Source of the DNA: Christiangramia crocea
GTDB lineage: Bacteria > Bacteroidota > Bacteroidia > Flavobacteriales > Flavobacteriaceae
DNA: 64,000 nucleotides
Reading direction: 5' to 3'
Assembly: GCF_022410465.1 (NCBI RefSeq)
Contig: NZ_JAJSON010000009.1
Coordinates: forward strand, 124,001 to 188,000
The position numbers and the translations under genes are program-made. The notes under the pieces were generated by a model. It worked only from the letters and a program-made list of their open reading frames with translations. It had not been told where the DNA came from and searched no databases. Position 1 is the first letter of the stretch, and each line of letters starts with the position of its first letter. Shown piece by piece: positions 5,022-39,036 of the stretch.

Positions 5022-5517
5022 ACTTTGATACAATCCACAAAAAATTTCATTTAATTTGATAATGCAAAACAAATAAAAAGGATTCGAAAATTTTTTAGTT
5101 TCATTTAATTTGTTTTAATTTGAAATTAACAAGTTCAGAAATTCATTCCTGTTAGAAAACAATAATTATAAGAACTTCAGAAGAAGGCTATCTTTCGATA
5201 ATTTTCATTTGATTATTAGCTATGATAAACCTTTAAAGATTTTTGAATTATGCATTTAAAAATCAAGGCTGTTAAAGGTTGTGCTTAAATTCTAAAGTAA
5301 TGAATGATTTCATTCGGGTTCTGTGGAAAATTATAGGACTGTGCTACTGAACCTGCTTTATAACTTTTAAAAAAGGTTAAAAGTAAAATGGAGTTGAACA
5401 AATAATTGATAACGGCAATCGAGAAAACAAAAATTTGCAAGTTCTAAAGAAATGTTATCAGAAGATATTAAAGGTTTTTTTAAATCTTGATCATGAACCT
5501 ATTGAAAAAAACTCACA
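5022..5517. other. AT-rich intergenic region, no gene seen
   Basis: About 500 bases between the GH31 gene and the kinase operon. No gene, strong hairpin or exact TAnnTTTG box was found. Its length suggests a separate promoter for the kinase operon, but I cannot place one. Confidence 0.5.
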
Positions 5518-18600: not shown

Positions 18601-19169
18601 ACAAGTAGGTACATATCCAAATCCTGGTCTTTGTCATAATCAAAAAATGCTGCTTGCATGGATTGCCTGGTATCTGCCAAACCATATTCCGCTGCCTTTT
18701 CTACAAATGTCAAATCACCATTATTTATATACAATAAATTTGATCTTTCGGAAACATTACCACCTCCAGATACACACACATAGATATCTAAATAGCCATC
18801 TTGATTTATATCTACCATTGTAACTCCAGTACCCCAACTAGAATTAAGGATTCCTGCCTTTTCACTAATATCTTCGAATTTAAGTCCTCCTTTATTAAGA
18901 AATAGCCGTCCAGGAACCATGTTCCCACTGAAATAGACATCTGAAAGGCCATCATTATTTATATCACCCACAGCAACCCCGGCTCCTGTATAAATATTCA
19001 TGAATTGAAAAACGTTAACACTATCATTCTCAATAATAGTGTTAGAAAATTCAATGCCAGTATCATTAGGTGAAAGCAACCTAAACAATGTAGGATCCTC
19101 ATGTCGACAAGATGACAAGATCGTGAAAAACACTATTAAAAGAATAATATGTGAATAAGGTCTTTTCAT
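15636..19169 (-). CDS. Large FG-GAP/VCBS repeat lipoprotein with ASPIC/UnbV domain (CRTAC1-like)
   Basis: A 1177-residue lipoprotein (lipobox LSSC near 20). Two arrays of FG-GAP/VCBS beta-propeller blades carry many calcium-type loops such as DINNDG, DINQDG, DYDKD and DFDGDG. Between the arrays, near residues 520-590, lies an ASPIC/UnbV domain recognisable by IGAHVKI, HFGLG and ITWPD. These proteins are common beside SusCD genes in Bacteroidota and probably bind glycan or protein on the cell surface, but the exact role is unknown. It is a paralogue of the gene upstream, with which it shares an ATGA overlap, and overlaps the haloperoxidase-like gene by 20 nt. Confidence 0.9.
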   Translation of the reverse strand: MKRPYSHIILLIVFFTILSSCRHEDPTLFRLLSPNDTGIEFSNTIIENDSVNVFQFMNIYTGAGVAVGDINNDGLSDVYFSGNMVPGRLFLNKGGLKFEDISEKAGILNSSWGTGVTMVDINQDGYLDIYVCVSGGGNVSERSNLLYINNGDLTFVEKAAEYGLADTRQSMQAAFFDYDKDQDLDMYLLVNPAAYEQHVNISKPRQLNGESVSNDRLYRNEGNGKFIDVTNTAGILTEGYGLGIGITDINNDSWPDIYISNDFIGNDILYINQKDGSFKNKLSENINHTSYAGMGNDVADIDNNGKTDIVVLDMRPEDNKRQKLIISSSGYDRFQMMLKAGYDPQYSRNTLQLNMGAGEFSEIGFMAGISSTDWSWSPLLADYDNDGFKDLYVTNGFLRDLGNLDYIHYQNIYDNPLGDAETKKKRKLKSIHQLPPAKIANYAYRNTGNLTFENVSEDWGINSPSCSNGAAYADLDNDGDLDLLVNNVNQPAFLYENTANERNKSNYLRIQFKGENGNLEGIGAHVKITTHSATQYYEHYLSRGYESSVDHTAHFGLGKHSLIDSLEITWPDNRYQLLTNVPANKLITLKQSLAHEKVKGKIDTIKTIPLFRDITDSIGISYQHKEDPMVDYKMQSILPHMHSRNGPGIAVGDANNDGIEDFYIGGAAGSPGKLFLQNSKGLLESGSFESEPEYEDMGSIFFDADGDQDQDLYVVSGGVSSGNQPALYQDRLYLNDGNGNFTRFQELPKITASGSLVTASDYDHDGDLDLFIGGRVNPGSYPMPAKSFLLENVSDTTTGKLNYVDISNSIENWDKLTMVTSAIWSDYDNDGWTDLLVTGEFMPITIFHNDHGKLVYVNPDENGLSNTNGWWNSIAGGDFDGDGDIDYLLGNLGLNSRYTASEEKPVSVYAKDFDKDGKIDPIMSCYIGDEEYPVHSRDEIISQINAMRARFKTYESYANVTFDEAFLPEELQGAYIVKSENFESSYMQNQGNGKFLLKPLPINCQTGPIEGILVDDFDGDGRLDALLTGNSYTTEVSTGRYDAIKGILLKGDGNGGFVTMSIKHSGFLNDMDASALSQLSKVGGGSYIISANNDGPLKIFETNNSDNHLKNIEVSDEIISAEIILKNGESYKTEFYFGSGYLSQNSRSINLNKNIQTIKLQDRKGNIKIIYNDEEIY

Positions 19170-22100
19170 TTAGTTATAGAAATTTCATGTTCATTACCCT
19201 TGTTGTCAATTATGATTAAGGAACTTGCATCTTTTGGGATTGGAAGTGCCAAACTAGGTTGCGATAAATATCCCGAAGATCTAGAGAATTCAAATTTCTG
19301 GAATGAATTATCGGGGTACTTAATTATAGCTCCAACCTCATTTTGTTTGGGATAATAAGTATTTTGTGAGGGGCCATCATATTCCAAAACGGCCATAGGG
19401 CCATTGTTAATACCGGCCAATATCAACTCTTTCTGCCCCGATCTAAGGTTAACGAGGGATTTTGCGTCTCCTTTTACAAAGAAACCACTTTCTCTAGATT
19501 CAATAGGGGTTAAATTTCCTTTGCCATCACCTGCTAAAAACCACCCTATTGATGCATCATATTGACCTGAAAATACTTCTCCACTATAAAAGTTTCCCAC
19601 AGCCAGCACATCTAAATGATTGTCATTATTATAATCTCCCACAATTGTTCCATACATGGGCGAAATTTGAGCCATTTTTGGTAATGGAGATAATTTAAAT
19701 TTGCCATTGCCTAAATTTTCTAAATAGCTATTAGCAAAGGTTTGACTTTTGACAACATAAGCATCTTCTAATTCCTGCTTAAGAAACGTTTCCTTAAATG
19801 TAACCTCGGCATAATCTGTATAATTTCTGAACCTTCCTCTCATGGCATTGATTTGCTTTATCAAATCATTCCTGGAATGTCCAATATAATTCTCACCATT
19901 AATATAATAGCTCATTATAGGGTCAATCTGTCCATTTTTGTCATAGTCTTTGGCATGGATTCGAAGAGGTTCGTCTATACTTACATTATATCGGTTATTG
20001 AGGCCAAAATTTCCAAGTACATAATCCACATCACCATCCTCGTCAAAGTCTCCGGAGTTAATGCTGTTCCACCAGCCATAACTATTTTTCAAAACTCCAT
20101 CTCCTGCTATTTCTTTTAAAACCCCTTTATTGTTCTGAAAGATACGTATGGGCATGAACTCTCCAACTACTATAAGATCGGGCCAATTATCGTTATTAAA
20201 ATCTGTCCATAACGCTGCCGTGACCATTCCCAATTCATTTAGTATAGAGTTACTATTGTCTTCCGAGAAGTCAATTTTTCCAGGTTTGCTCTTATTATTG
20301 AGGAGCATGCTTTTAGGGATCATGGGATATTCACCAGGGCGAACTCTCCCACCTACAAATATGTCCATCAATCCGTCACGATCGTAATCTGCCGCTGTTA
20401 CTACAGAACCGCTAGTGTTATTTTTAGGCAGGGCTTCTATTCTGGAATACTTACCGGTGCCGTCATTTTCATAAAAGCGATCCTCATAAAGTTTACTGTC
20501 TTTGCCAAAACTGCTTCCTCCACTAACAACATACATGTCCTGATCACCATCGTTATCAGCATCAAAAAGTAAAGAGCCCATATCTTCATATTCGGGATCT
20601 TGAAAATCAATTTTAGTAAATTCTCTATTCTGCTGCTGTACCAGAAGAGCTCCGGCTTGTCCAGCTGCACCTCCAATGAAACAATCTTCGAGGCCATCTC
20701 CGTTGATATCCCCTACAGAAAGACCCGGTCCATTTCTTGAGTGCATATGCGGCAACAATGGTTGAACTTTAAAATCTACAAAATTATCTTCACGATGAGT
20801 AAAATCTAATGAGGTACTATCTTTTAGATGGAAATTTTTTTTGAGAACACCTTCGGTATTTAATCTTTTGTCTCCCCATTCTTCAGCATTCTTATGGCTT
20901 AGTTGATGCTCCTTCCCGGCAGGAATATTTTTTATCAATTGCTTTTTTCCATCAGGCCAGGTAACAATAACAGTATCAATTCTCTTGATATTACCTAGCC
21001 CGAAGTGAATACCAGGTTCAACGGAAGACAGATAACCTCTATAGGGTGTATTGTAGCCGAACTGTTTTTTCCCATCGTAGCGGATTTCAACTTTACTTCC
21101 AAGTCCATTAATATTTTCAGATGTTCCTTTGAACTTAAATTTAATATAATTTTTTAATGGATTTTTGTCACTTTGGTTCTCGAATAATCCGGCAGGATCA
21201 TCAATGTTATTTATAACAAGGTCTAAATCACCATCATTATCAAAGTCGCCATATGCCATACCATTTGAATAAGTGGGCTCCTTTATACCTGCTTCGTCAG
21301 TATTATTTTCAAATCCTAAATCACCGGTATTTCTATAAAAATAATTCTTTATCTTAATTCCAGGTAGTTTGTTTAACTCCTTGAGTCTTTCTTTTCTATT
21401 GGCTTCTTCGGTACCCATGGTAAGAATCCTGTTTCCATAGACCATAAAATCTAAATTGGTTATATCCTGTCTATAGCCATTGGTAACAAATAAATCTCTG
21501 AACCCGTCCTGGTCAAAATCTGCAAAGAGAGCACTCCAGCTCCATTCGGTGGCAGAAATGCCTGACAATTGACCAATTTCACTAAACGAGCCATTACCAT
21601 TGTTTAATTGAAGTGTATTCCTAATATATTGGGGTTGATATCCATATGATTGTCTGGTTTGAAATGCATCATAATTGTTTCCCATCATGGTGAGTTTTTG
21701 CCGTTTGTTGTCTTCTGGTAGCATATCCAGAACAACAACGTCTGATAAACCATCATTATTTATATCTGATATATCATTGCCCATACCATTGAACGTCAAA
21801 TGTTCAAAATAATCACCGATTTGGTTTTTAAATGTTCCATCCTTTTGATTTATATAGAGAATGTCATCTGTAAGAAAGTCATTTGATACATAAATATCAG
21901 GCCATCCATCCATATTTAAATCACAAATTTCGACACCTAGGCCAAAACCTTCTACAAGTATTTGGGCTTCATTTGAGACATCAGTAAAAGTATTGTTCCC
22001 GTTATTTCGGAACAATTTATCTACAGAAGGAGCTTTCCCGGTCGTATCTTTTGGACGTGAGGTATTCCTATTAAAATCAACTAAGGCGTTACAGAGGAGA

Positions 22101-22702
22101 TACATATCCAGATCTCCGTCCAGATCGTAATCAAAAAATGAAGCCTGTACAGAATAACTATCATCATTTAGGCCCCATTCTGCAGCCGATTCAGTAAATG
22201 TTAATCCTTGTCCTTTTTTACCATTGTTTATAAAAAGTAAGTTGGATCTTTCCGCACTTGTAGAACTACGAGGTCCAGCACGGCTAACATAAATATCAGG
22301 GTACTGGTCTTGATTAATGTCGACTATGGCTACTCCATTTGACCAGTTTGTGGAATTTGTATTTGATTGAATGGTAATATCTTCAAATTTCCAGTCACCA
22401 AGATTTCTATATAATTTGTTGCTAGACATATTAGCAGTGAAATAGATGTCCAACAACCCATCCAAATCAAAATCAGCAACTGCCACACCAGCACCATTAT
22501 ACATATACTCGAATTCAAGTACAGTTAACTTATTGGATAAAATAAGTTCATTAGAGAAATTAATACCTGTTTCCTTAGGTGTTTTTGATTTGAATAATGT
22601 ATCAGGATCATTACAGGAAAAAATCAAAAATAAAAGAGTCAGAAATGGTAGTATATTATTTTTTTGTTTCTTAATTAAAGAGTAAAAACCATAATTATAC
22701 AT
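19166..22702 (-). CDS. Large FG-GAP/VCBS repeat lipoprotein with ASPIC/UnbV domain, paralogue
   Basis: About 1178 residues from ATG 22702; an in-frame TTG ten codons earlier (22732) would fall inside the preceding hairpin and is less likely. The lipobox is IFSC. The architecture is the same as in the downstream paralogue: FG-GAP blades with DFDLDG, DINQD, DYDLDG, DFDQDG and similar acidic loops, a central ASPIC/UnbV domain (LGSKVEI, HFGLG, VTWPDG) and a second set of blades. The two proteins align end to end, for example at the shared LPHMHSRNGPG, so they arose by tandem duplication. Surface binding of the glycan imported by SusCD is the likely role. The 4-nt overlap implies coupled translation. 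Confidence 0.9.
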   Translation of the reverse strand: MYNYGFYSLIKKQKNNILPFLTLLFLIFSCNDPDTLFKSKTPKETGINFSNELILSNKLTVLEFEYMYNGAGVAVADFDLDGLLDIYFTANMSSNKLYRNLGDWKFEDITIQSNTNSTNWSNGVAIVDINQDQYPDIYVSRAGPRSSTSAERSNLLFINNGKKGQGLTFTESAAEWGLNDDSYSVQASFFDYDLDGDLDMYLLCNALVDFNRNTSRPKDTTGKAPSVDKLFRNNGNNTFTDVSNEAQILVEGFGLGVEICDLNMDGWPDIYVSNDFLTDDILYINQKDGTFKNQIGDYFEHLTFNGMGNDISDINNDGLSDVVVLDMLPEDNKRQKLTMMGNNYDAFQTRQSYGYQPQYIRNTLQLNNGNGSFSEIGQLSGISATEWSWSALFADFDQDGFRDLFVTNGYRQDITNLDFMVYGNRILTMGTEEANRKERLKELNKLPGIKIKNYFYRNTGDLGFENNTDEAGIKEPTYSNGMAYGDFDNDGDLDLVINNIDDPAGLFENQSDKNPLKNYIKFKFKGTSENINGLGSKVEIRYDGKKQFGYNTPYRGYLSSVEPGIHFGLGNIKRIDTVIVTWPDGKKQLIKNIPAGKEHQLSHKNAEEWGDKRLNTEGVLKKNFHLKDSTSLDFTHREDNFVDFKVQPLLPHMHSRNGPGLSVGDINGDGLEDCFIGGAAGQAGALLVQQQNREFTKIDFQDPEYEDMGSLLFDADNDGDQDMYVVSGGSSFGKDSKLYEDRFYENDGTGKYSRIEALPKNNTSGSVVTAADYDRDGLMDIFVGGRVRPGEYPMIPKSMLLNNKSKPGKIDFSEDNSNSILNELGMVTAALWTDFNNDNWPDLIVVGEFMPIRIFQNNKGVLKEIAGDGVLKNSYGWWNSINSGDFDEDGDVDYVLGNFGLNNRYNVSIDEPLRIHAKDYDKNGQIDPIMSYYINGENYIGHSRNDLIKQINAMRGRFRNYTDYAEVTFKETFLKQELEDAYVVKSQTFANSYLENLGNGKFKLSPLPKMAQISPMYGTIVGDYNNDNHLDVLAVGNFYSGEVFSGQYDASIGWFLAGDGKGNLTPIESRESGFFVKGDAKSLVNLRSGQKELILAGINNGPMAVLEYDGPSQNTYYPKQNEVGAIIKYPDNSFQKFEFSRSSGYLSQPSLALPIPKDASSLIIIDNKGNEHEISITK

Positions 22703-22729
22703 ATAATTAATAAATTTCTTAGATAAGCA

Positions 22730-22762
22730 CAATCCAATCTATATATTATATAGATTGGATTG
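22730..22762 (-). terminator. Perfect 16-bp palindrome between susD and the FG-GAP genes
   Basis: CAATCCAATCTATATA at 22730-22745 is mirrored exactly at 22747-22762 around one central base. In RNA this folds to a tight hairpin, 62 nt after the susD stop. There is no clear U-tract on the minus strand. It could partly terminate or process the SusCD message and so set a lower level for the FG-GAP genes, or it could protect 3' ends. Confidence 0.6.
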
Positions 22763-22823: not shown

Positions 22824-24362
22824 TTAATATCCGGGATTTTGAACTAACAAACCACCAGAACGTTCAATTTCTGTTAAAGGAAAAGGAAACAGGTTTAGCT
22901 TATCATCCCAGAGAGAACCAAATACCTCAGGACCAATTCCCCATCGGATGATATCAAACCATCTATGTGGTTCAAACGCCATTTCTACTCTTTTTTCATG
23001 TCTCATTGCGGTTAACAAATCTGTTCCTGGTGCTAAATCATCTAAACCTACCCTATTTCTGATATCGTTAATTTGTTGTTCAGCAATTTCTAAGGAACCA
23101 CCACCTTCTATAAGGGCTTCGGCATATAACAGCTTTAGTTCAGCAAAACGAAACCAACGTTCATTATTAAACTCTGACTGTCCGTTTGCCGAAAAGTTTC
23201 CGCTAACTCTATTTTCTTCCCCCCCATATTTTTGCACAGTTAAGTCGGTTGAGGACCAAATGGGATCATAAGGCAATTCTATCTGGCCTCCGGCATCATA
23301 CGTATAATACCTATCCCCCTCTTGATATATGCCAATTTCCAATCTTGGATCACCAGGTTCAAAAGCATCTAACAAATCTTGAGTTGGCGCCCACTGACCC
23401 TGTTTTCCTCCAGGCGCACCATTACCACCTGCGTCCCAATAGTGACTTCTGGCGATCCCTTGTGAGGCTTTAAAATCTTCAGAGTGCGTGTCGTCAAAAA
23501 CCCATAGATTATCATCTGAAAAAGGTCCTCCAAATTGGATTTCAAAGATAGATTCAGCATTATTTTCGCTATTAAAATAAAAGTTATCTTCATAATTAGG
23601 CATTAGCATATATGGGCCATTATTAACTACCTCTTCAAAAGCACTAATGGCTGCAGGCCAATCTTCTTTCCAAACATTTACTTTTCCTATATAAGATTTT
23701 GCTGCCCAGGATGTTGCTCTTCCAGTATTTCCACTATCCCATGATTCTGGTAAACCGGCTGCAGCATCTGTAAAATCACCTAGTATTGCAGTGAATAACT
23801 CATCCTGAGTAGCGTTTGGTAATGCCTGATCGTTTATTCCAGGAATAATCTCCATGGCCAATGGAGGGGTACCATACATTTTCAGAGCCTGAAAATGAAA
23901 CCATGCACGAAGAAATTTAGCTTCTGCAGCCAATACGGTTTTATCTTCATCTGTTAACTCATTTTCGCCATCTAAACGTTCAAGTACCAAATTAGCTCTA
24001 TAAATTCCCTCATAAATCTGGGTGTAGGCAGCAGCATAAGGAACATCTGCTGCTCTAACCTGCAGTGCATCTATATCCCTTGAAATTTGATCTGAATTAA
24101 TAGCGTCAGCTGCAACATCATCAGTGATTACTACTGTAAGCTTCCAAAATTCACCTCTTTCAGATAAAGTTTCGGTACTCGTTCCCCAAAAATCTTGAAT
24201 CGATGAATAGGATGCAAAAATAGCACCATCAAAGTCAGCTCTAGTTTTATAAAAGGTGTCAGTGGTCAACCTATCTAAAGGTTGTAAATCTAATTGGTCG
24301 TTACATGAGAATAAAGTACCCAAAAAGCAAACGATAAATATAAATTGGTTTATTTTTTTCAT
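22824..24362 (-). CDS. susD: SusD/RagB family outer-membrane glycan-binding lipoprotein
   Basis: About 512 residues from the ATG at 24362, which gives a compact lipoprotein signal (MKKINQF ... LFSC); an ATG six codons earlier (24380) is also possible. SusD traits are the N-terminal CNDQLDLQPLDRLTTDTFY, the TPR-like helical core with AAEAKFLRAWFHFQALKMYG, and the C-terminal RFAELKLLYAEAL and EKRVEMAFEPHRWFDIIRWG. SusD proteins sit on top of the SusC channel and capture oligosaccharides at the surface. It follows susC by 32 nt in this reading. The pair defines the region as a polysaccharide-utilisation locus. Confidence 0.95.
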   Translation of the reverse strand: MKKINQFIFIVCFLGTLFSCNDQLDLQPLDRLTTDTFYKTRADFDGAIFASYSSIQDFWGTSTETLSERGEFWKLTVVITDDVAADAINSDQISRDIDALQVRAADVPYAAAYTQIYEGIYRANLVLERLDGENELTDEDKTVLAAEAKFLRAWFHFQALKMYGTPPLAMEIIPGINDQALPNATQDELFTAILGDFTDAAAGLPESWDSGNTGRATSWAAKSYIGKVNVWKEDWPAAISAFEEVVNNGPYMLMPNYEDNFYFNSENNAESIFEIQFGGPFSDDNLWVFDDTHSEDFKASQGIARSHYWDAGGNGAPGGKQGQWAPTQDLLDAFEPGDPRLEIGIYQEGDRYYTYDAGGQIELPYDPIWSSTDLTVQKYGGEENRVSGNFSANGQSEFNNERWFRFAELKLLYAEALIEGGGSLEIAEQQINDIRNRVGLDDLAPGTDLLTAMRHEKRVEMAFEPHRWFDIIRWGIGPEVFGSLWDDKLNLFPFPLTEIERSGGLLVQNPGY

Positions 24363-24394
24363 GATAATTTTATTATGCATACAAATTTCTTAGT

Positions 24395-27300
24395 TTAATT
24401 GAAGTTTACTGTCCATCCTAATTGGATAATTCTAGGTAGGGGTGAGGCTCCACCATCTTGGCCGGTTGCCAAAGTAAAATCCCCTTTTTGAAAACTCTGA
24501 GTACGACCAACCTCAGGATCATAACCTGAATAATCAGTAAAAGTCACTAAGTTTTGGCTACCTATGTAAAATCTCATTCTTGTCACAAAATCGTTTGTCC
24601 AGTTTTTCAATTTATCTGAAGGCAAACTGTATCCTACAGAGATATTCTGTAATCTTAAATATCCTGCATCTTCTACCCATCTGTCAGAAAAACGGTTATT
24701 CCCATTAGGGTCATTCACCGCCAACCTGGGATGGGAACTCGAATTGGTGGTTCCTTCACCAGTCCATCTCTCTAAAACTTGAGTGCTAAAATTTCCTTGG
24801 CCAGTCATACCTTCCAAACCAATTCTTGCTGAATTATATACCTGTTTATTGCCTACACCTCTTAGATTCATAGAAAAGTCCCATCCTTTGTATTCTGCGT
24901 TAAAATTAAATCCATAAAAGAATTTGGGAAACGGACTTCCTATTATGGTTCTGTCATTAGCATCTACGACACCATCTCCATTGACATCCACAAAACGTAT
25001 ATCTCCAGGGGAAGGAGTTCCATTGACATCTGGTACTGCCGCAGCAACTTCTGCTTCATTCTGGTAAAGACCATCTGTTTTATATCCATAGAAATGGCCA
25101 AGACTTTCACCTACGATAGTTCTATGTGTAGATGCACCTCCGATACCACTAATTATTGAGGGTATGGGGCCTAAATCAGTAACTTCATTTTTAACCGTAG
25201 TAAGGTTTCCGCCGAAACTATAGTTAAAATCTCCTACTGCATTCCCGTAATTAAATGAAAATTCAATACCGGAGTTCTTAATTTGTCCAATATTTGCGTC
25301 AGCAGGCAGGAAAAAACCGGAGACATAAGGCAAGGGGAATCCTAATAGTACATCATCAGTCGTTTTATTATAGTAATCGAATGTTCCTGTTAATTTCCCG
25401 TCAAAAAGGCTGGCGTCAACACCTATATCATACTGAGTACTTGTTTCCCATTTTAAATCGGAATTCGCAAACGTCGTTGGGGCCGGAGCCACAACTGTTT
25501 CCTGATTGTCGCCGATGACATAACGAACATTATTATCAATAGAACTGAGATATGCGAAATTCAGACCTGTAAATTGGTTTCCAGACTGTCCCCATCCAGC
25601 TCGGAATTTTATATCATCAAAAACACTTTCTTCCGGGAAGAAATTCTCATCTGTAATTCTCCACCCTACTGAAACAGATGGAAATACCTGCTCTCTGTTT
25701 CCAGGTGCAAATCTTGATGTTGCGTCTCTTCTTACGTTAGCAGTGGCAAGATATTTTCCTTTATAATTATAAGTTACACGACCTAACCAACCCTGCAATG
25801 TCCATAAATCTGCTTCATTTGCACCTGCTACCGTCGTTCCAGTAGCAGCAAAATTTTCATTGAATAAATCTCTTCCCTGAAGGCGTTGTTTATCATAACG
25901 GAATTTTGTTTGTTCAAACCCAAAAACCGCGCCTACATTATGACTTCCAAAAGTCTTATCATATTGAAGCGTAGCCGCACTAGTTAAAGTCAATTCTATA
26001 GGTCTTTCCGAGACTAAAAGGGATGAACCACTGCCTCCACTCAACGATGGAAGATCGCTTGTAAAATAATCTCCTACTCCAACATTATAATCAATACCTA
26101 ATGAAGTTCTGGCTTTTAATCCATCGAAGATTTTAAGTTCCCCATAAAAATTACCTAAAACTTTACGTGTTTGGACTTTAGTGAAAGTATACCTTTCATC
26201 TGTAACATATAAATAATTTGTAGCTGAGCCATTTCCAACAGTTTCCTGATTTATTAAATTATATCCTAAGGGTCCATCTCCATATGGCTGATAATAAGGT
26301 GCGTTCATAGACGAACGGAACCCTGCATATATAGCCGGTTCACTTTGAATCTGCCGATCTGTTTGACTTATCAAAACCGATTCTCCAAATTTAAGCCTCT
26401 CACCAACTTCTATGTCTGAATTTGCTTTGAATGAATATCTGGTAAAGCCTTGTGCTCTTTCAATACCCTCCTGATCTAAATAACCTCCGGAGATAAAGTA
26501 AGTTGCCTTTTCATTCCCTCCACTCACTGAAACATTATGATTTTGAACGAACCCAGTTTTAAAAATAAGGTCTTGCCAATCAACATACGGTTGTCCTCTA
26601 AATTGAGAGAGATCAGTTCCAAGCTCACTTTGAATATCGATGTACTGATCAACATTCAGAACATCTATTTTATCTCTAACGCTTGCAAAGGAAGTGTAGC
26701 CATCATATGTTACCCTGGCATCCCCCCTTTTACCTCTTTTCGTCGTTACAATAATAACCCCATTAGCTGCCCTAGCCCCATAAATGGCCGTAGATGCCGC
26801 ATCCTTCAAAATATCAATAGATTCAATATCATTAGAATTCAAACCTGCTAATGGATTAGAGTCTGTAGTTGAAGAAGTATTAACAGTAATATTGGTAGTT
26901 TGAACAATCGGTACACCATCTATTACCCATAAAGGATCATTAACTCCAGGTGTTCCAACTCCACGAATTCTTACACTTATTGGTGCACCGGGATCTCCAC
27001 TACGATTCGTAATATTGACTCCTGATACCGTTCCTGCTAATGCCTGGTCAGGACTTGTAATTGGTTTTGTTACAATTTCGGATGCCCCTATAGAAGATAC
27101 CGCACCAGTCAAGTCAGCTTTTCGTTGCGTTCCATACCCAACCACTACAACTTCTGACAATGCATCGGCATCTTCAGACAATGTTACATTAATGGTGCTT
27201 CTGCCATCTATAGGGATTGTCTGGCTTTTAAACCCGACAAATGAAAAAACCAAAGCATTATTACCCTCAGGAACGCTTATAGTGTAATTTCCATCAAAAT

Positions 27301-27487
27301 CAGTTACTGTACCAATATCGGTGCCTTGGACAATGACATTTACACCGGGAATACCGCCTGAGGCATCTGAAACCTTACCCGTAACGGTCGTTTGAGCATA
27401 AGCGTGGGAAGTCCCTAAGGACACCAGAGCAAAAAACGCTATTAAAAACAAATTCTGCTTATAGCATTTAAAGGGAGTTTTAATCAT
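24395..27487 (-). CDS. susC: SusC/RagA family TonB-dependent outer-membrane transporter
   Basis: A 1030-residue outer-membrane receptor. A signal peptide ends near residue 31 (SHAYA). A carboxypeptidase-regulatory-like domain follows (about 33-105; VTGKVSDASGGIPGVNV and DGNYTISVPEG), then the TonB-box region EVVVVGYGTQRK. The plug comes next (RIRGVG, PLWVIDGVPI, IDILKDAASTAIYGARAANG), and a 22-strand barrel ends in an aromatic residue (TVNFN). It imports oligosaccharides with SusD using TonB energy. The locus has no hybrid two-component or anti-sigma regulator in this window, so the DeoR protein at 29.1 kb is the only candidate regulator seen. Confidence 0.96.
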   Translation of the reverse strand: MIKTPFKCYKQNLFLIAFFALVSLGTSHAYAQTTVTGKVSDASGGIPGVNVIVQGTDIGTVTDFDGNYTISVPEGNNALVFSFVGFKSQTIPIDGRSTINVTLSEDADALSEVVVVGYGTQRKADLTGAVSSIGASEIVTKPITSPDQALAGTVSGVNITNRSGDPGAPISVRIRGVGTPGVNDPLWVIDGVPIVQTTNITVNTSSTTDSNPLAGLNSNDIESIDILKDAASTAIYGARAANGVIIVTTKRGKRGDARVTYDGYTSFASVRDKIDVLNVDQYIDIQSELGTDLSQFRGQPYVDWQDLIFKTGFVQNHNVSVSGGNEKATYFISGGYLDQEGIERAQGFTRYSFKANSDIEVGERLKFGESVLISQTDRQIQSEPAIYAGFRSSMNAPYYQPYGDGPLGYNLINQETVGNGSATNYLYVTDERYTFTKVQTRKVLGNFYGELKIFDGLKARTSLGIDYNVGVGDYFTSDLPSLSGGSGSSLLVSERPIELTLTSAATLQYDKTFGSHNVGAVFGFEQTKFRYDKQRLQGRDLFNENFAATGTTVAGANEADLWTLQGWLGRVTYNYKGKYLATANVRRDATSRFAPGNREQVFPSVSVGWRITDENFFPEESVFDDIKFRAGWGQSGNQFTGLNFAYLSSIDNNVRYVIGDNQETVVAPAPTTFANSDLKWETSTQYDIGVDASLFDGKLTGTFDYYNKTTDDVLLGFPLPYVSGFFLPADANIGQIKNSGIEFSFNYGNAVGDFNYSFGGNLTTVKNEVTDLGPIPSIISGIGGASTHRTIVGESLGHFYGYKTDGLYQNEAEVAAAVPDVNGTPSPGDIRFVDVNGDGVVDANDRTIIGSPFPKFFYGFNFNAEYKGWDFSMNLRGVGNKQVYNSARIGLEGMTGQGNFSTQVLERWTGEGTTNSSSHPRLAVNDPNGNNRFSDRWVEDAGYLRLQNISVGYSLPSDKLKNWTNDFVTRMRFYIGSQNLVTFTDYSGYDPEVGRTQSFQKGDFTLATGQDGGASPLPRIIQLGWTVNFN

Positions 27488-27799: not shown

Positions 27800-28954
27800 T
27801 TAGTAGATAGTAACCCCTTTAACGACTCTTGAAATAGCTCCTGTTGTGGATGGGGAATCTGGTTGTAGTTTCAAGTGTATTGATTTATAGAAGCTTAATA
27901 ATTGTCCAAACAAAATATAACAAATTGAAAGATATTCTTCTTCAATGTCTATTGACTGATCAATCTTTAGCTCAATTAGTTCATCAATCATTGGAATATC
28001 AAGGGGTTTTGTTGTAATACCAATTTGCTTTAATGGTTTTTTGCCAACTCCCATACTTTTGACGAGATCTAATTCATAACGAATCACATCCTTTCTGTTT
28101 GAAAAATAATAAACTAATAATGTTTCCTCATTTACTACAGCTTTAGGTCCGTGGCGGAATCCTAGATAGGAGTCATTTTTACAGATTACAGAACCATCTG
28201 TCAATTCCTGTAATTTAAGATGTGATTCCATTGCGGTGCCAAAAAGTGGTCCTGAGCCTAGAAAAACGGCTCGTTTAAATTCTAACGAAACTGTTTTTTT
28301 AATTTCATCTAACTTATTAAATAACAGTTCATTACCATACGATACTAAAGCTTGAACGGTTGATTCTAGATTCTCAATATTTTTGAAATCACTAAACAAC
28401 AAGGCTGTTAAAAGCATTCCCGAATAACTACCTGTCATTGCAAGACTTTTATCGTTAGATTCAGGTGGCAAAAGAAGGGTTAAGTGTTTGTTTTTTGAAG
28501 AGTATTTGGCTAAATCACCTTGTTCGCTACAAGTTATAATAAGATGAAAACATTTATCGATATAATTGTCCGCCAATTTTATTGCGGCAATGCTTTCGGG
28601 ACTATTTCCAGATCTTGCAAAAGAAATCAGTAAAGTTGGAGTTTTCTTATCTAGATAATCATGTGCATGTGAAACCAAGTGAGTGGTAGGTATTGAGAGT
28701 GTGGTTATTCCTGTATTTCGCTGCATTGCCCCTTCAACAGAGTGCCCTATGTAAGAACTTGTTCCCGCACCAGTCAAAATTATCTTTTTAGTATTTTTTA
28801 AAATTAGATTTTGAAAGGAACTTATGTTTTTTTTCTCCTTAACAAGTTTATGGAAGATTTTAATCCACAACGCTGGTTGTCCGGATATTTCTTTGGCAGT
28901 ATCAAGACCTCCCATCACTTTCAACTTAGCTTCTTCAATATCAAGATATTTCAT
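27800..28954 (-). CDS. agaS: AgaS-type galactosamine-6-phosphate deaminase/isomerase (two SIS domains)
   Basis: A 384-residue sugar isomerase with two SIS domains: GAGTSSYIGHS and SFARSGNSPES in the first, LGSGPLFG and FRHGPK in the second. The C-terminal QPDSPSTTGAISRVVKGV corresponds to the conserved tail of AgaS, which separates it from GlmS and FrlB relatives. AgaS converts galactosamine-6-phosphate to tagatose-6-phosphate and ammonia in the cytosol. The product would go to the LacC-like kinase and the class II aldolase of the same island. It is transcribed away from the DeoR gene and toward susC, with a possible -7 box at 29009-29016. Confidence 0.9.
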   Translation of the reverse strand: MKYLDIEEAKLKVMGGLDTAKEISGQPALWIKIFHKLVKEKKNISSFQNLILKNTKKIILTGAGTSSYIGHSVEGAMQRNTGITTLSIPTTHLVSHAHDYLDKKTPTLLISFARSGNSPESIAAIKLADNYIDKCFHLIITCSEQGDLAKYSSKNKHLTLLLPPESNDKSLAMTGSYSGMLLTALLFSDFKNIENLESTVQALVSYGNELLFNKLDEIKKTVSLEFKRAVFLGSGPLFGTAMESHLKLQELTDGSVICKNDSYLGFRHGPKAVVNEETLLVYYFSNRKDVIRYELDLVKSMGVGKKPLKQIGITTKPLDIPMIDELIELKIDQSIDIEEEYLSICYILFGQLLSFYKSIHLKLQPDSPSTTGAISRVVKGVTIY

Positions 28955-29008
28955 TTGCTGACTAAATTATGATATAAATTTTTCTTTAACTTTCAAAACC
29001 TTATTTTA

Positions 29009-29016
29009 CAAATATA
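29009..29016 (-). promoter_or_regulatory. Possible -7 promoter element for agaS
   Basis: The minus strand reads TATATTTG, an exact match to the Bacteroidota -7 consensus TAnnTTTG, about 55 nt upstream of the agaS start. No good TTG is seen at -33. The divergent gap 28955-29122 should also hold the DeoR operator, which I could not define. Confidence 0.35.
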
Positions 29017-29122
29017 TAAAACCTTCTTTAAGTTTCGTTATCTAATTTTATTTATTTGTTATTCTAATCATAAATAATATGTTATTATATTAGCCTCAAA
29101 ATATTGTAAATCCCTAAAAAAA

Positions 29123-29908
29123 ATGCAGGATCCCAAAAAGAAGCGGTCCACGGTTGAACGCCGTAAAAAAATATTGAACATGCTCGAATTGAATGGGCAA
29201 GTTTTCGTACATGAGCTTAGTGAAGAGTTCGGAGTTAGTGAGGTTACTATTCGTAATGATCTTGAATTATTCGAGTCAAAGGGTTTTCTTATCCGTTCAA
29301 GGGGTGGAGCCATGATCATTGAAAAAACGGTGGGGATGGATTTTCACTTATCTGATAAGGACAAGATTAATTATTCTGAAAAAATACGGATTGGAAAAAA
29401 AGCCGCAGAGTTAGTGAATTCAGGGGAAACCATAATTTTAGATTCTGGTACTACTACCATGGAAATTGCTAAAAACCTTAATTCAAATAAATCTGTAAAT
29501 GTAATAACGAATGCCTTAAATATAGCTAATGAACTACTTAAAGGTCCAAATATTAACATTATAGTGCCAGGAGGAACATTGAGAAGGAATTCACATTCTT
29601 TAGTTGGTCCATTAGCTGAAAAAAGTGTAAGGAATTTCTACGTGGACAAGGTTTTTCTTGGTGTGGATGGATTTGATACTACTGAAGGTGCTTTCACTCC
29701 AAACATTGAGGAAGCATCTTTAAATCAAATAATGATTGAAATTGCAAAAGAGGTGATTTTAGTGGCCGACTCTAGCAAATTTAAAAGGAGGAGTCTTGCA
29801 TTTATTTGCCCGCCACATAAGATTGATATTGTCATTACAGATGAGAAAATAAGTAAGGAAGACCGAAATTTTTTACAAGATCAAAATATACAGCTTATTA
29901 TTGCTTAA
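29123..29908 (+). CDS. DeoR-family transcriptional regulator (AgaR-like)
   Basis: A 261-residue repressor. The N-terminal winged helix shows ERRKKILNMLELNGQVFV, then VSEVTIRNDLELFESKGFL and RGGA, the classic DeoR signature at about 12-62. The C-terminal DeoR sensor domain has ILDSGTTTMEIAK, NALNIA, PGG and FLGVDGFD, which binds a sugar phosphate. Proteins of this group near agaS are usually AgaR, sensing a GalNAc-pathway intermediate. It is divergent from agaS, an arrangement typical of a regulator controlling its neighbour and itself. Control of the whole island, including susCD, is an inference. Confidence 0.9.
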   Translation: MQDPKKKRSTVERRKKILNMLELNGQVFVHELSEEFGVSEVTIRNDLELFESKGFLIRSRGGAMIIEKTVGMDFHLSDKDKINYSEKIRIGKKAAELVNSGETIILDSGTTTMEIAKNLNSNKSVNVITNALNIANELLKGPNINIIVPGGTLRRNSHSLVGPLAEKSVRNFYVDKVFLGVDGFDTTEGAFTPNIEEASLNQIMIEIAKEVILVADSSKFKRRSLAFICPPHKIDIVITDEKISKEDRNFLQDQNIQLIIA

Positions 29909-34070: not shown

Positions 34071-35948
34071 TTAAACCAATCTTGAAAATCGCGCGTTGGA
34101 TTTGGGAAAGTCTACCCCCATGGCAAAGGTCGTGAATAGTCCGCCACATACAGAAGACAAAACAGTTTCCCATCCAAAACTTGATGTTGTGATCACTGCA
34201 TTTACAGGAATGCAGGTCATCACAATTCCTATGGCAAATGATATGATCGCGGTCCATTGATATAACCGGAGTCCTTTTATAATTGGCGTTTGAACTTCGC
34301 CTCTGTAGGCTTCTTCCACAAATCTGCCAATACTGGTGAGAATAAGATAAAGGCCAAAAATAAATGACATGGAAAAGCTATTATTCCACAGGGAGAGTAA
34401 AACCAAACCTACTAAAAACAGCCATATCATAGAATAAAGAGGTGTTGGGTGAAGAAGTTCACCCTTCATATGAGAAATACCGCAAACCCTTGAGCGATGA
34501 TGATAATATCTTATGCCGATGTCGGGATTATGAGCTTTCTTTCCATGACAACAGCCATTTACAAGGCAACGAAATCTTCCAATAGCCTGCACCCAGGGCA
34601 TGGTGACCGAGATCACCCCAATAAGAATCCAAACATTGTAGCCCATTAACCAAACCACCAGGCTGGCAAAAATAATTCCCACCAGTGCGCCATAATAGCC
34701 ATAAGGTCTTTTCAATTTTTCAGAACCTTCTATGATCTGTGCCCATAGTGCTGAAAAGATGATCACAACCACCGCGAAAATTAAGATCCCCCAGGCGTAA
34801 AAATCTCCTACTAACATTCCAGCGATCAGGATACCCAGGAAACTACCTAAACCAACATAGAAGCCATGGTTTATTATCCTGACATTCCCAAAAACCCATT
34901 CATTCCAGGAATTAGCTATTTCTTCAGTCATATTTTTTAAAAAGACCCAGATCTGAAAGTAATTATCGGCAAGAAGGAAAATGATCAAAGAGACACTCAG
35001 GCTAAGAACTGCCGAATAGGTATAGCTCAATTGCAATATGACGAGAATAAGAGTAATAAAGCTGAATAGTATTCCCAGGCCTTTTGATTGTTTGAAAATG
35101 GCTCTTAGTGAAATTAGCAATATGAAAATGGGCGCCAGATAAGCCATGGAATTATAAGGGGCAACATATACTGCTACAACCTCCGGATAGAGGAAAGCAC
35201 CGAAAGTATAAATGCCCAAACCAAGTATTCCGGCAAGTGTCCAGTGCCGTAAAAGCTGCCTTGTTTTAATAAGGAAAGGTGTGACCAGTAAATAGCCCAA
35301 TCCCAAAAGAGGTAAATACTCATTTTGAGTAAAAGATGGCAATGTCAATTGCATTTGGATGCTGGAATGAAAATCATTTTCAATGACCCTGGCAATTAAA
35401 AAATTGCATAAAAGTAACGGGGCTGTTACCAGAAATAAAGAGACCAGGCGTTGTCGTATCCCGGGAATTTCTTTTGTGTTTTCCGGAAGCTCAAAAAATG
35501 TGGAGATAGTTTGATCTGGAAATCTTCTTTTTAGATCGATCGCTTCATATCCTATTACAAGGGCTATCATACAAAGAATCGTGATAGGGGTTGCCAGCCA
35601 TAGGCCGCTTGCTGAGTTGGTTAAAACAAAAAAACCTGTTATTAGAATTCCGAAGCCCCAATAAATAGGATGATGAAAAAACCTGTAGGCTCCTTTATTT
35701 ACCAGCTTTTCAGGCGGAAAGGCGTTCATGGGAAGTCCTTTTCCGTATATCTTTAGAGAGTACATTCCCCAGATCATTAATAAAAAACCACAAACAAGCA
35801 GAAACCAGCCGGCATTTTCAGATCCTATTACAGGAAAGGCTATAATTTCTTCAGTATATTTTGCCCATAGCCACAAAATTATGGGGATAACTACAAGAAA
35901 GGTGGTAGCGTAAAGAAACTTGCCTGCCAAAGTTTTTATTGCTTTCAT
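34071..35948 (-). CDS. Polytopic fusion: isoprenylcysteine-methyltransferase-like domain plus Lgt-like domain
   Basis: A 625-residue membrane protein, last gene of a five-gene operon. Residues 1-150 resemble the ICMT/PEMT methyltransferase family: transmembrane helices, GAYRFFHHPIYWGFG (H92, H93, P94) and the acidic-basic YEAIDLKRRFPD. The middle (160-450) is mostly transmembrane and not recognised. The C-terminus has three Lgt-type motifs: GRFRCLVNGCCHGK (about 457-470), LHPTPLYS (about 499-506) and GRFVEEAYRGE (about 541-551). Lgt moves diacylglyceryl from phosphatidylglycerol to lipoprotein cysteines. The combination suggests head-group or protein lipid modification in the inner membrane, probably with the isoprenoid made by the first gene. 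It overlaps the permease by 4 nt. Confidence 0.75.
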   Translation of the reverse strand: MKAIKTLAGKFLYATTFLVVIPIILWLWAKYTEEIIAFPVIGSENAGWFLLVCGFLLMIWGMYSLKIYGKGLPMNAFPPEKLVNKGAYRFFHHPIYWGFGILITGFFVLTNSASGLWLATPITILCMIALVIGYEAIDLKRRFPDQTISTFFELPENTKEIPGIRQRLVSLFLVTAPLLLCNFLIARVIENDFHSSIQMQLTLPSFTQNEYLPLLGLGYLLVTPFLIKTRQLLRHWTLAGILGLGIYTFGAFLYPEVVAVYVAPYNSMAYLAPIFILLISLRAIFKQSKGLGILFSFITLILVILQLSYTYSAVLSLSVSLIIFLLADNYFQIWVFLKNMTEEIANSWNEWVFGNVRIINHGFYVGLGSFLGILIAGMLVGDFYAWGILIFAVVVIIFSALWAQIIEGSEKLKRPYGYYGALVGIIFASLVVWLMGYNVWILIGVISVTMPWVQAIGRFRCLVNGCCHGKKAHNPDIGIRYYHHRSRVCGISHMKGELLHPTPLYSMIWLFLVGLVLLSLWNNSFSMSFIFGLYLILTSIGRFVEEAYRGEVQTPIIKGLRLYQWTAIISFAIGIVMTCIPVNAVITTSSFGWETVLSSVCGGLFTTFAMGVDFPKSNARFSRLV

Positions 35949-36706
35949 TTTGTCCGCATTTTATAGAAGAAAATAAGCATGGAAATAATCAAAAATATCA
36001 TACCGTATAGGAGCGCATATAGGCTTGCAGATACTGCAGAATAATTGGTGAATGCTTTAACAATAGATGCCTGGGAAGGAAAGTATGCCGGTAGAAATTC
36101 AATGAGTATCTGGTTTTGAGCGGCGGCATAGAATATAGGATTCTGCAACCAGCCTACATCAATATTCACAAGTAACACTATAAGAAGAATAGCCTCCAGT
36201 TCACCTTTTACCAGGCTGCCCACTGCCAGTCCGTAACTGCCATAAACGAAGCCTATAAGTGCCAGGCTTAGTGTGAAACTAACCGGATGGTCAACAGGGG
36301 TGAAAGCAATGGTTAAGAGTCCTATATAAACTGAAATAAACAGGATCGTCAATAATAGAACGAGTAAAATAGAGGTAAGTAACTCAAGAGGGTGATATCC
36401 GCAAAGAACCAGCCTTTTATTGGCATTGTGATTTTTCTGAATAAGATTAAGTGCCAGGAATGAAACCAGGAATCCCGCTGATGCCACCGAAAAGAATATA
36501 AAGGAAATACTCTTTTCGGGCATATCTATGAATACCTGATCACCTACTGAGGCAAGCTGGAAATGAATGACTCTTTCGGCAGATGTGAATTCTACGATAG
36601 ACAGAAAAACCGTAGGGATAAGCAGGATCAGGATAAGAACGATCTTACGGCGAATAAGCATTCGCAATATCATGGCCAAACTGGTATTGATCCTGTGAAT
36701 ATTCAT
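35945..36706 (-). CDS. ABC-type transporter permease subunit
   Basis: A 253-residue integral membrane protein with about six hydrophobic segments (starting at about 20-40, 70-90, 100-130, 140-165, 170-190 and 225-245). After the first segment there is a short periplasmic-looking loop. The layout is that of ABC-2-like permeases, but sequence similarity is weak. Its partner is the ATPase upstream, with which it shares a 4-nt overlap; the downstream fusion protein also overlaps by 4 nt. Together they would form an exporter of a lipid or hydrophobic compound. Pairing and membrane topology are well supported; the cargo is inferred. Confidence 0.75.
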   Translation of the reverse strand: MNIHRINTSLAMILRMLIRRKIVLILILLIPTVFLSIVEFTSAERVIHFQLASVGDQVFIDMPEKSISFIFFSVASAGFLVSFLALNLIQKNHNANKRLVLCGYHPLELLTSILLVLLLTILFISVYIGLLTIAFTPVDHPVSFTLSLALIGFVYGSYGLAVGSLVKGELEAILLIVLLVNIDVGWLQNPIFYAAAQNQILIEFLPAYFPSQASIVKAFTNYSAVSASLYALLYGMIFLIISMLIFFYKMRTK

Positions 36707-37302
36707 TTTAATGTCCCATTTTCAAGTTTATAAATCCGGTCAAATTTTTTCTTTTCATTTATCAAATGTGAAACCACCAGAATGGAGCATCCTTTCTCCT
36801 TGAGATCTTTGGTATAATCCCAGAACTTTAGATAGGTATCCCAGTCAAAGCCATTATAAGGTTCATCAAGTATCAGGAGTTCAGGTTCATGGAGGAGGGC
36901 AATGGAAAGATTTAGTTTTTGCCGTGTTCCTCCACTCAAATTGTTAACCCTTGTATTATAATACTTGCGATAATTAAAGTGATCCAGAAGTTCCTCCACG
37001 CGTACATTTAATACTTCCGCTTCAATATTATAGGCTGCAGAGAAGTACCTGAAATGTTCCTGAACAGTGATTTCAGGGAAGAGGATAGCCTCCTGCGGGC
37101 AATAACCTGTTTTACCATTTTTATGAACCTTGCCCCGGTTGGCACTAATATCACCCGCGATAATTCGCATTAAAGTAGATTTACCTGAGCCGTTTTCACC
37201 CACGATTCCGGTTAGGGTTCCCGCTTCCAATTGCAGGGAGACTTCCTTTAGAACTGGTTTTTTAGAATAGGATTTATATATGTTCTCTAATTTTAAGATC
37301 AT
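36703..37302 (-). CDS. ABC transporter ATP-binding protein
   Basis: A 199-residue ATPase from ATG 37302; this start gives an ATGA overlap with the upstream stop and removes a nine-residue extension that a start at 37329 would add. All nucleotide-binding motifs are present: Walker A GENGSGKST, Q-loop YCPQE, signature NLSGGTRQK, Walker B LLILDEP and the switch histidine in VVSH. It energises the permease encoded next. The short length and lack of accessory domains fit an ABC-2-type exporter. Confidence 0.95.
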   Translation of the reverse strand: MILKLENIYKSYSKKPVLKEVSLQLEAGTLTGIVGENGSGKSTLMRIIAGDISANRGKVHKNGKTGYCPQEAILFPEITVQEHFRYFSAAYNIEAEVLNVRVEELLDHFNYRKYYNTRVNNLSGGTRQKLNLSIALLHEPELLILDEPYNGFDWDTYLKFWDYTKDLKEKGCSILVVSHLINEKKKFDRIYKLENGTLK

Positions 37303-38114
37303 GTTGACTGAGGCTTGAAATTCACCCATTCATGTATGGCCATACCATGTACGATTTCAGAATTAGCTTTCTGAAATTCTCCGTTGCTAAGCCATTTATG
37401 GTTGTCGGCCATTAGAAACTTCACCGGCATAATCTTTTTGAAACCGGGGAGATAATGCAGTAGTTTTCCCACTACCTGATATATCTTTTTTTCAGATTCC
37501 AAAACTATTTTGCGATTCAGTTTCAATTGAAAATCTCCTTCTCTTGATGAAACCTGATCATTCTCTATGATACAGTCAGGGATACTTTCACCGTTTAGCC
37601 ATAACCACTGTTTTTTATCTACTTCTCTTAGCTCTATCCAAACCATAGTATCGTTTATTGAATGGAATCTTCCCCAGCGGAGATCGTTCATTGGGATATG
37701 CCACGGAAGAGCGGTGAGAATAAGTTGCTCAGCATAACCGCTCCCTTCCAGTATCCTTCCTTTTATACTTAGTTTTACCTTCGATGCCGGTTGAAAACAA
37801 TGCCAGTCCAGATTTCCCTTTTCAGAATCATAAATTCTACAGTCAAGAGGTTGAGCAGCGGCTTCCCATTGTCCTTTAATTTCAAGTTTATTGTCTAACC
37901 AGGTGATGATTTCCTCTTTTTGAAGAGGAAGGTCGGTATTGCGAAAATGCGTGCTTAGCTTTACATCTTCCCCGGGAATTTTATGAATACAACTTGTATA
38001 ATTTACCGTGATACCATGCCATGATAATTTTGCAGAATAGTAAATAATGACCTCTCCGTCTTCCCCAAGAAAATCCAGATACCATTTATTTAGATGAAAA
38101 TTCGATTTTTTCAT
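37299..38114 (-). CDS. Uncharacterised beta-rich protein, possibly CrtC/AttH (lipocalin-like) related
   Basis: A 271-residue protein without signal peptide or membrane helices. Alternating hydrophobic strands and aromatic motifs are conspicuous: KWYLDFLGEDGE near the start, LDWHCFQPASKV near 120, and GYAEQLILTALPWHIP followed by LRWGRF near 155-180. This pattern reminds me of the carotenoid-1,2-hydratase (CrtC)/AttH lipocalin-like superfamily, which acts on isoprenoids, but I cannot confirm it. It starts inside the end of the synthase gene (29-nt overlap), so the two are probably made together. A role in modifying or carrying the isoprenoid product fits the context. Confidence 0.7.
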   Translation of the reverse strand: MKKSNFHLNKWYLDFLGEDGEVIIYYSAKLSWHGITVNYTSCIHKIPGEDVKLSTHFRNTDLPLQKEEIITWLDNKLEIKGQWEAAAQPLDCRIYDSEKGNLDWHCFQPASKVKLSIKGRILEGSGYAEQLILTALPWHIPMNDLRWGRFHSINDTMVWIELREVDKKQWLWLNGESIPDCIIENDQVSSREGDFQLKLNRKIVLESEKKIYQVVGKLLHYLPGFKKIMPVKFLMADNHKWLSNGEFQKANSEIVHGMAIHEWVNFKPQST

Positions 38115-38958
38115 GATTTACGGGTAGTTTTTTGGTTTCTGAGATTAGTTTTTGGAATACTTTCCTGGCCGGAAGTTCATAGACCAGTAAGAAAGTCCAT
38201 TTTTCAATAAGAGAGAAGTTGCCCTCGGGCATTATGTTGCGGTGTTTTTCAAGAAGTTCCATGCCGTCCTGAGCATGATTGTAAAGCCATTCCCGAATCT
38301 TTGGTGATGAGGCATCCATAAGATCTGCCTTTTCAATGCCAAGCTCTTCGCAATCCTCCTGGGGGATGTTCACATAGCCTGCAGCAAGATCGGCTTCAAT
38401 GTCTTCAATGTCATACTGATATCTGCAGGCTTTGCCAAGTGGTTCCAGGATCAAATATTTATCCGGATCGTCCTTGAAGACCTTGAGAGTGGCTCTGATT
38501 GTTCCTTGGATATCAAGCAAATGAAAATGATGTTCCAATTCCTCTTTTGAAAAAACGCTTAGTTTTCCTCTTCGGTTTGCATCAAATAGAAGTGAATTAA
38601 GAATGTCTTCTGTTTCTTCCTGAAAATTTTCATTAAACAATTCAGCAAGTTCAAAACAATAAAGCAGCATATGGTCTGCCTCATCCTTTGGGTTAACCGG
38701 GTTTCGGGCAAACCTGAGCTTTTCGGAAATATATTCACTTTCACTTTGATAGCCTTCAGGTAAGGGAATGTCGCCATCAACAATATCGTCAAGGTAGCGC
38801 ATTAAAACATAATACGATTCCAGAAATGTTCCTCTGGTAGGAGCAAAAGCGGCATATTTAAAAAGCCGAAGGTACCGTAAAAAACTGCGGTATTTCCAGC
38901 CTCTGGTCTCAAGCATCTGCTTGAATACCCGCTTACGCATTTGTTTTAGATCTTTCAC
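38086..38958 (-). CDS. Squalene/phytoene-synthase-like protein
   Basis: A 290-residue, all-helical protein that reads as a head-to-head prenyl synthase. The first Asp-rich motif is YLDDIVDGD (about 54-62), and the second region is YQYDIEDIEADLAAGYVNIP (about 177-196) followed by QED, which matches the second DxxxD and the RxYxP-like part of phytoene and squalene synthases. Such enzymes condense two prenyl diphosphates. The usual carotenoid genes crtI and crtY are not beside it. It is the first gene of the operon, with a good promoter at 39008-39036. The product (squalene, dehydrosqualene or another prenyl lipid) is unknown. Confidence 0.75.
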   Translation of the reverse strand: MKDLKQMRKRVFKQMLETRGWKYRSFLRYLRLFKYAAFAPTRGTFLESYYVLMRYLDDIVDGDIPLPEGYQSESEYISEKLRFARNPVNPKDEADHMLLYCFELAELFNENFQEETEDILNSLLFDANRRGKLSVFSKEELEHHFHLLDIQGTIRATLKVFKDDPDKYLILEPLGKACRYQYDIEDIEADLAAGYVNIPQEDCEELGIEKADLMDASSPKIREWLYNHAQDGMELLEKHRNIMPEGNFSLIEKWTFLLVYELPARKVFQKLISETKKLPVNHEKIEFSSK

Positions 38959-39007
38959 ATCCCTAACTTTTAATGCTATTTCATTAAAGATTTAAAGAGG
39001 AAAACAT

Positions 39008-39036
39008 CAAAAATATATTCCATCCATTATCTTCAA
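39008..39036 (-). promoter_or_regulatory. Promoter of the isoprenoid/ABC operon
   Basis: On the minus strand TTG (39036-39034) is followed after 18 nt by TATTTTTG (39015-39008), a full match to the Bacteroidota -33/-7 pattern. Transcription would start near 39001, leaving a leader of about 43 nt before the synthase ATG. No other feature was seen in 38959-39278. Confidence 0.55.

Follow-up and report, generated by a model that had tools for sequence, protein, structure and literature searches.

Introduction

In acyclic carotenoid pathways, CrtB, CrtC and CrtF act in this order, the CrtF step following that of CrtC. The locus described here, a five-gene operon in a 64,000-nucleotide stretch of Christiangramia crocea (Flavobacteriaceae; contig NZ_JAJSON010000009.1, positions 124,001 to 188,000; hereafter the window), likewise encodes a squalene/phytoene-synthase-type enzyme (P0001), a CrtC-fold protein (P0002) and a methyltransferase (part of P0005), but it differs from that module by the PEMT/ICMT membrane type of its methyltransferase, by the lack of a desaturase, and by an added Lgt domain and ATP-binding cassette (ABC) transporter (P0003 and P0004).

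For the individual proteins, the closest described counterparts are squalene synthase HpnC and dehydrosqualene synthase CrtM (P0001), kievitone hydratase, AttH NE1406, fungal Diels-Alderases and 25-phosphosteroid lyase (P0002), and Lgt of E. coli (PF01790; 5AZB/5AZC; P0005). In the parts of the CrtC literature drawn on here, His239, Trp241, Tyr266 and Asp268 are given as catalytic residues, and His239 and Trp283 are reported to be important (PMC4717167, PMC12402844). For E. coli Lgt, the part of the study used here proposes that His103 binds the lipobox peptide and reports that the H103Y variant failed to complement (PMC4728403). The five-gene set was not found described in the open-licence PMC papers covered, in agreement with an earlier note, made from the sequence of the window, that knew of no such pathway. 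The reading favoured here, to which we assign a probability of roughly 0.5, is that the operon serves a specialised isoprenoid-lipid pathway in which the Lgt-like transferase acts on a non-protein acceptor, with a presumed isoprenoid substrate, lipid product and export step.

Results

All five genes also occur in the window's order in Maribacter (L024), Algibacter (L025), Mangrovimonas (L026), Arenibacter palladensis (L027) and a metagenome-assembled genome of the Flavobacteriaceae (L028); in a sixth locus (L029), the contig end cuts inside the second gene, and the remaining order is kept. All six were retrieved by searching genome contigs with P0002, which reaches close relatives only, and all belong to the Flavobacteriaceae. 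Since the order recurs in L024–L028, the arrangement is not due to chance. The earlier note had proposed that the five genes act together and had set their lack of joint conservation elsewhere as a possible refutation; they are conserved together, with the order complete in five loci. The last two junctions are 4-nucleotide overlaps in all six, and so is the junction between the hydratase-like and ATPase genes in five of them (1 nucleotide in L026). The 29-nucleotide overlap at the first junction is peculiar to the window, the first two genes being non-overlapping in L024–L027. In L028, a lysA-like decarboxylase gene (4061–5254; 237.7 bits, under the lysA cut-off of 297.9) lies between the synthase and hydratase-like genes. 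Where the sequence extends far enough, the flanking genes, read by eye, vary between loci, as for a unit that is moved or lost often.

How far the unit extends beyond close relatives was read from 395 Bacteroidota genomes. A single-query search with P0002 matched 12 of them, eight with full-type and four with longer CrtC-like proteins, and P0002 and P0005 occur together in eight (G000, G042, G120, G093, G243, G101, G146 and G314). The two genes are adjacent in seven of these, and in the window only the ABC pair stands between them. As the P0005 profile was built from rows of the same eight genomes, what it newly tells is absence elsewhere: no other sampled genome has full-length P0005, and G372 matches over the methyltransferase part only. 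Profiles of P0001 and of the permease P0004 match two genomes each (G000 and G042; G000 and G372), all of which supply rows to the respective profile, and G042 carries P0001-P0002-P0005 without transporter genes. In a separate draw of 395 Flavobacteriales genomes, P0002 (profile A2, E 1e-10) was found in the window's own genome only. These counts indicate a rare and patchy unit with P0002 and P0005 as its stable core. This corrects the earlier note in that the synthase and the ABC transporter are optional, and the part found Bacteroidota-wide is P0002 plus the fusion protein. Spread by plasmids was rejected, as neither P0005 (E 1e-5) nor P0001 (E 1e-3) had a match in 72,556 plasmid records, and no relative of either was confirmed on viral contigs. 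In four f24 genomes (L020–L023), a CrtC-like gene sits, by eye, between acyltransferase-like and glycosyltransferase-like genes, which suggests an acyl-glycosyl carotenoid cluster.

P0005 was aligned with 13 relatives (L013, L014–L019 and L024–L029). PEMT, ICMT and LGT each match all 14 proteins at E 0.1; the window's protein exceeds the cut-offs of PF01790 (76.3 versus 24.9 bits) and PEMT (38.4 versus 25 bits) and stays under that of ICMT (20.1 versus 24 bits). The methyltransferase-Lgt fusion of the earlier note therefore has both its domains, but the description was incomplete, as six relatives contain a third, PAP2-type part. PAP2_3 (best 9.4e-13) and PAP2 match six of the 14 in a domain scan that does not name them, and the PAP2 motif FP[SA]xH is present in six, L014–L019, and absent in the window, L013 and L024–L029; the window's protein has no PAP2 match at all. 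L014–L019 are also the members from genomes without a P0001 match. In the P0005 tree, PAP2-bearing and PAP2-less proteins fall on two sides (support 100/100), L029 lying on the P0001 side though its contig stops short of the upstream gene, and the P0002 tree groups the rows that have P0001 (86/88). Judged from these trees, the exchange of PAP2 for P0001 was probably one event, and it can thus not be counted as repeated evidence.

The Lgt domain of P0005 retains the equivalents of E. coli Lgt R143, R239, E243 and R246 (R458, R542, E546 and R549 in the alignment). In contrast, the position of His103 in the HGGL motif is occupied by Tyr in all 14 aligned members (Tyr419 in the window), the signature reads GCCHG, and the domain is fused to a methyltransferase, plus a PAP2 domain in the six relatives. 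A stand-alone Lgt paralog in G146 (L066) has FYG instead of HGG and the signature GCCYG, so the His-less type of Lgt is wider than the fusion. Two further Lgt genes of G146 (L067 and L068) are of the HGG type, the frame of L067 comprising 450 residues with an insertion.

The predicted structure of P0002 is a two-barrel, lipocalin-like fold of the CrtC/AttH/kievitone hydratase superfamily (fold comparison with VIA-align). Kievitone hydratase, AttH NE1406, the Diels-Alderases and 25-phosphosteroid lyase share it over 230–247 residues, but P0002 is only 6–11% identical to them, has 271 residues compared with 323–381 in their chains, and stands in a different gene context. CrtC residues were located on P0002 from motifs and spacing, with the CrtC-like proteins in alignment A6 as the link (Table 1). 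Among 14 aligned P0002-type proteins, the Trp is kept in 13, the Tyr in 14 and the acid in 14 (Glu in 13, Asp in one), and the His in none. That the beta-rich protein modifies an isoprenoid, as the earlier note had it, gains support from this predicted fold, which the note had missed together with the PAP2 alignment of the P0005 middle region in relatives.

P0001 exceeds the curated cut-off of SQS_PSY (PF00494) narrowly (30 versus 26 bits), and its predicted structure has the squalene-synthase fold (VIA-align), with scores of 21.0 for HpnC, 19.6–19.9 for CrtM-like proteins and 19.3 for another dehydrosqualene synthase. Both Asp-rich motifs of the synthase, on which the earlier proposal also depended, are there and invariant in seven of seven sequences. 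The first aligns with the motif of phytoene and squalene synthases (PSY/SQS) in a global profile alignment, and the second aligns with the RDxxxD-type motif of 16 PSY/SQS sequences in both local and global alignments. The Asn and Arg of NxxRD, which we take to be the usual form and which most of the aligned PSY/SQS set also carry, are missing; P0001 has YxxED, and L013 has FxxED. HpnC and CrtM thus resemble P0001 in fold and Asp-rich motifs and differ by this replacement and by an identity of 16% or less. P0001 stays far under the NCBIfam equivalog cut-offs of HpnC (16.4 versus 250 bits) and HpnD (15.1 versus 279 bits), and searching solved structures by sequence yielded no helpful match to P0001, P0002 or P0005; only the fold comparisons of P0001 and P0002 were informative.

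P0003 is clearly an ABC ATPase; it was under the cut-off in every NCBIfam model among the best 25 of 204 matched. The match of P0004 to ABC2_membrane_3 is weak. A defence island was considered and rejected: of the five proteins, PADLOC matched the ABC ATPase only, and the four families concerned all have the same ATPase fold.

G372 contains a divergent relative of the operon (L046:5417–11860) with a CrtC-fold-type protein, a cytochrome P450 (5e-70), a methyltransferase-Lgt fusion, an ABC pair and a pyridoxal-phosphate (PLP) decarboxylase. Its P0002 counterpart, 19% identical and missed by the single-query search, was assigned by position and motifs; the fusion has no PAP2 match, the ABC ATPase was identified by eye, and the permease is 31% identical to P0004. 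This variant, together with the decarboxylase gene in L028, points away from a housekeeping role and towards a metabolite or lipid pathway that has diversified.

All five minus-strand frames lie where the earlier note had placed them, as do the overlaps of 29 nucleotides (38086–38114) and three times 4 nucleotides (37299–37302, 36703–36706 and 35945–35948), the first of these three presuming that the ATPase gene starts at its inner ATG, for a length of 199 residues as in L024–L029. The claim of one promoter finds only partial support in a promoter-like element, matched to what we take to be the Bacteroidetes-type consensus, that lies 78 to 50 nucleotides upstream of the P0001 GTG start; it is imperfect, and the type has six matches in the window, both strands summed. 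A foreign base composition was rejected, as the operon's G+C (0.399) is unremarkable beside that of the window (0.390).

Table 1. Positions of the operon and its features in the window.
Feature	Position	Strand	Basis or remark
Operon, five genes	34071..39036	minus	reading frames
Imperfect Bacteroidetes-type promoter-like element TTG-N18-TATTTTTG	39008..39036	minus	consensus match only
P0001, squalene/phytoene-synthase-type protein, 290 residues, GTG start	38086..38958	minus	
P0001, first Asp-rich motif R54-x-x-D57-D58-x-x-D61	38776..38799	minus	invariant 7/7; aligned to PSY/SQS motif in global profile alignment
P0001, second Asp-rich motif D186-x-x-x-D190	38389..38403	minus	D186 and D190 invariant 7/7
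P0002, CrtC/AttH/kievitone hydratase-fold protein, 271 residues; proposed isoprenoid hydratase or related acid-base enzyme	37299..38114	minus	
P0002, catalytic-type stretch W104, Y127, E129, W147	37674..37805	minus	placed on CrtC W241, Y266, D268, W285
P0003, ABC transporter ATPase, 199 residues from inner ATG	36703..37302	minus	ABC_tran 9e-30
P0004, ABC-2-type membrane protein, 253 residues	35945..36706	minus	ABC2_membrane_3 20.7 bits, below cut-off 31.6
P0005, methyltransferase - degenerate middle - Lgt fusion, 625 residues	34071..35948	minus	domain matches, alignment
P0005, PEMT/ICMT-type methyltransferase domain, residues 47-143	35520..35810	minus	PEMT 1.8e-9; ICMT 9e-4
P0005, middle region, about residues 205-335	34944..35336	minus	PAP2-type in six relatives; PAP2 motif absent here
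P0005, Lgt domain, residues 415-579	34212..34706	minus	LGT 3e-21; R458, R542, E546, R549 kept; Tyr419 at His103 position

Elsewhere in the window, two adjoining proteins of 1177 and 1188 residues (15636–22732) are rich in DxDGDGxxD-like repeats, which look VCBS/FG-GAP-like by eye, and neighbour a SusC/SusD-like pair (22824–27487). Genes at 5518–9187 and 27800–29908 resemble sugar catabolism by eye (two PfkB-like kinases and class II aldolase-like, amidohydrolase-like, AgaS-like isomerase and DeoR-like regulator genes).

Discussion

In the pathway that we favour, P0001 would belong to the class I prenyl-diphosphate enzymes, among those related to squalene/phytoene synthase, as its predicted fold and motifs suggest, and would join or discharge prenyl diphosphates. 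Within the double barrel of P0002, Glu129 may then protonate an isolated isoprenoid double bond, with water addition to a tertiary alcohol as the most likely outcome. By analogy with CrtF acting after CrtC, the methyltransferase domain of P0005 could methylate the product, and the Lgt-type domain would move a glyceryl-lipid group from a phospholipid onto an acceptor that is not a protein; such an acceptor is proposed because the donor-side residues are kept and Tyr replaces the peptide-side His throughout the alignment. The ABC pair may flip or export the product. In relatives without P0001, the PAP2 domain within the fusion may remove the diphosphate, a correlation that probably reflects one evolutionary split. 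The pathway outlined in the earlier note is thus supported in part, by gene conservation, the Asp-rich motifs and the P0002 fold, and is altered by the optional synthase and ABC genes and the additional PAP2-type part.

Several observations weigh against the favoured pathway, and some of them would fit other functions. P0002 has Leu102 in place of CrtC His239 and, by spacing, Leu145 in place of Trp283, residues whose importance is taken from the consulted parts of the CrtC papers; no Pfam or NCBIfam family model matches it, and its top-scoring folds are Diels-Alderases, not hydratases. It may accordingly be a pericyclase, a cyclase or a phosphate/diphosphate lyase that gives a polyene its shape or removes a leaving group from a tertiary isoprenoid carbon, which we hold to be unlikely, given that its sequence relatives within the phylum are CrtC-like and that it retains the acid, Trp and Tyr of CrtC as named in those parts. 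For P0005, loss of His103 is not peculiar to these operons, as the G146 paralog has Tyr as well, and in G101 (L017), a genome rated 100% complete, the fusion is the sole PF01790/TIGR00544 match found; the assembly may lack the true Lgt, the true Lgt may be too divergent, or the fusion may have replaced it. Together with the conserved donor-side residues, the case of G101 would suit an alternative Lgt for special lipoproteins, using a methylated or isoprenoid lipid donor. We consider that very doubtful, because the exchange of His103 for Tyr in all 14 members corresponds to the H103Y variant, for which the part of the study used reports failed complementation in E. coli (PMC4728403), and because a further Lgt gene is present in the window genome and in seven of eight other carriers.

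The assignment of P0001 is weakened by its strong divergence, seen in the narrow SQS_PSY score and the altered Asn and Arg, and by the absence of its G042 relative from the Pfam search at E 0.001. Other SQS/PSY genes number two or three in five of seven synthase-free carriers and one in G146 and G372; since these counts differ, no single isoprenoid substrate is evident. The idea that the synthase is confined to genomes lacking another squalene synthase pair was considered and then abandoned, because G146 and G372 contradict it. With this fold, P0001 could instead attach or rearrange a single prenyl chain, as a prenyltransferase (compare the carbazole prenyltransferases CqsB4/LvqB4) or as a terpene-synthase-like enzyme, and would then yield a prenylated small molecule, not a C30/C40 lipid. 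This seems unlikely, as HpnC, the CrtM-like proteins and the dehydrosqualene synthase score higher, if by small steps, and inspection of the contigs by eye showed no obvious gene for synthesis of an aromatic acceptor between the five genes or right next to them. NDUFAF6, a mitochondrial SQS_PSY relative, is a non-catalytic scaffold, and P0001 might be one too; the operon would then only modify an isoprenoid from another source, such as a carotenoid. The core pair does lack P0001 in six of the eight sampled carriers, and the genome has a separate crtI-crtB-crtZ-crtY-like set outside the operon (names by eye except the synthase), but the invariance of both Asp-rich motifs makes a scaffold quite improbable. 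The operon was rejected as the carotenoid operon proper, given this separate set and its own lack of a desaturase.

The specialised isoprenoid-lipid pathway can be put in a bolder form, which we offer as a speculation with the odds clearly against it: a new class of isoprenoid glycerolipid in Bacteroidota, in which an Lgt-type transferase, freed from protein substrates, would put diacylglyceryl on a hydrated (tertiary-alcohol) isoprenoid from a dedicated synthase and CrtC-like hydratase, the fused methyltransferase, and elsewhere the fused PAP2, completing a multi-step membrane enzyme. Simple tests of each step proposed for the favoured pathway are within reach, since few genes are involved and at least one strain in a culture collection, Arenibacter palladensis DSM 17539 (L027), carries them. 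If the favoured pathway is right, the Lgt fold would gain a chemistry beyond lipoprotein modification, marine Bacteroidota would gain a previously unknown lipid, and an enzyme of the CrtC/kievitone hydratase type would be linked to membrane lipid assembly.
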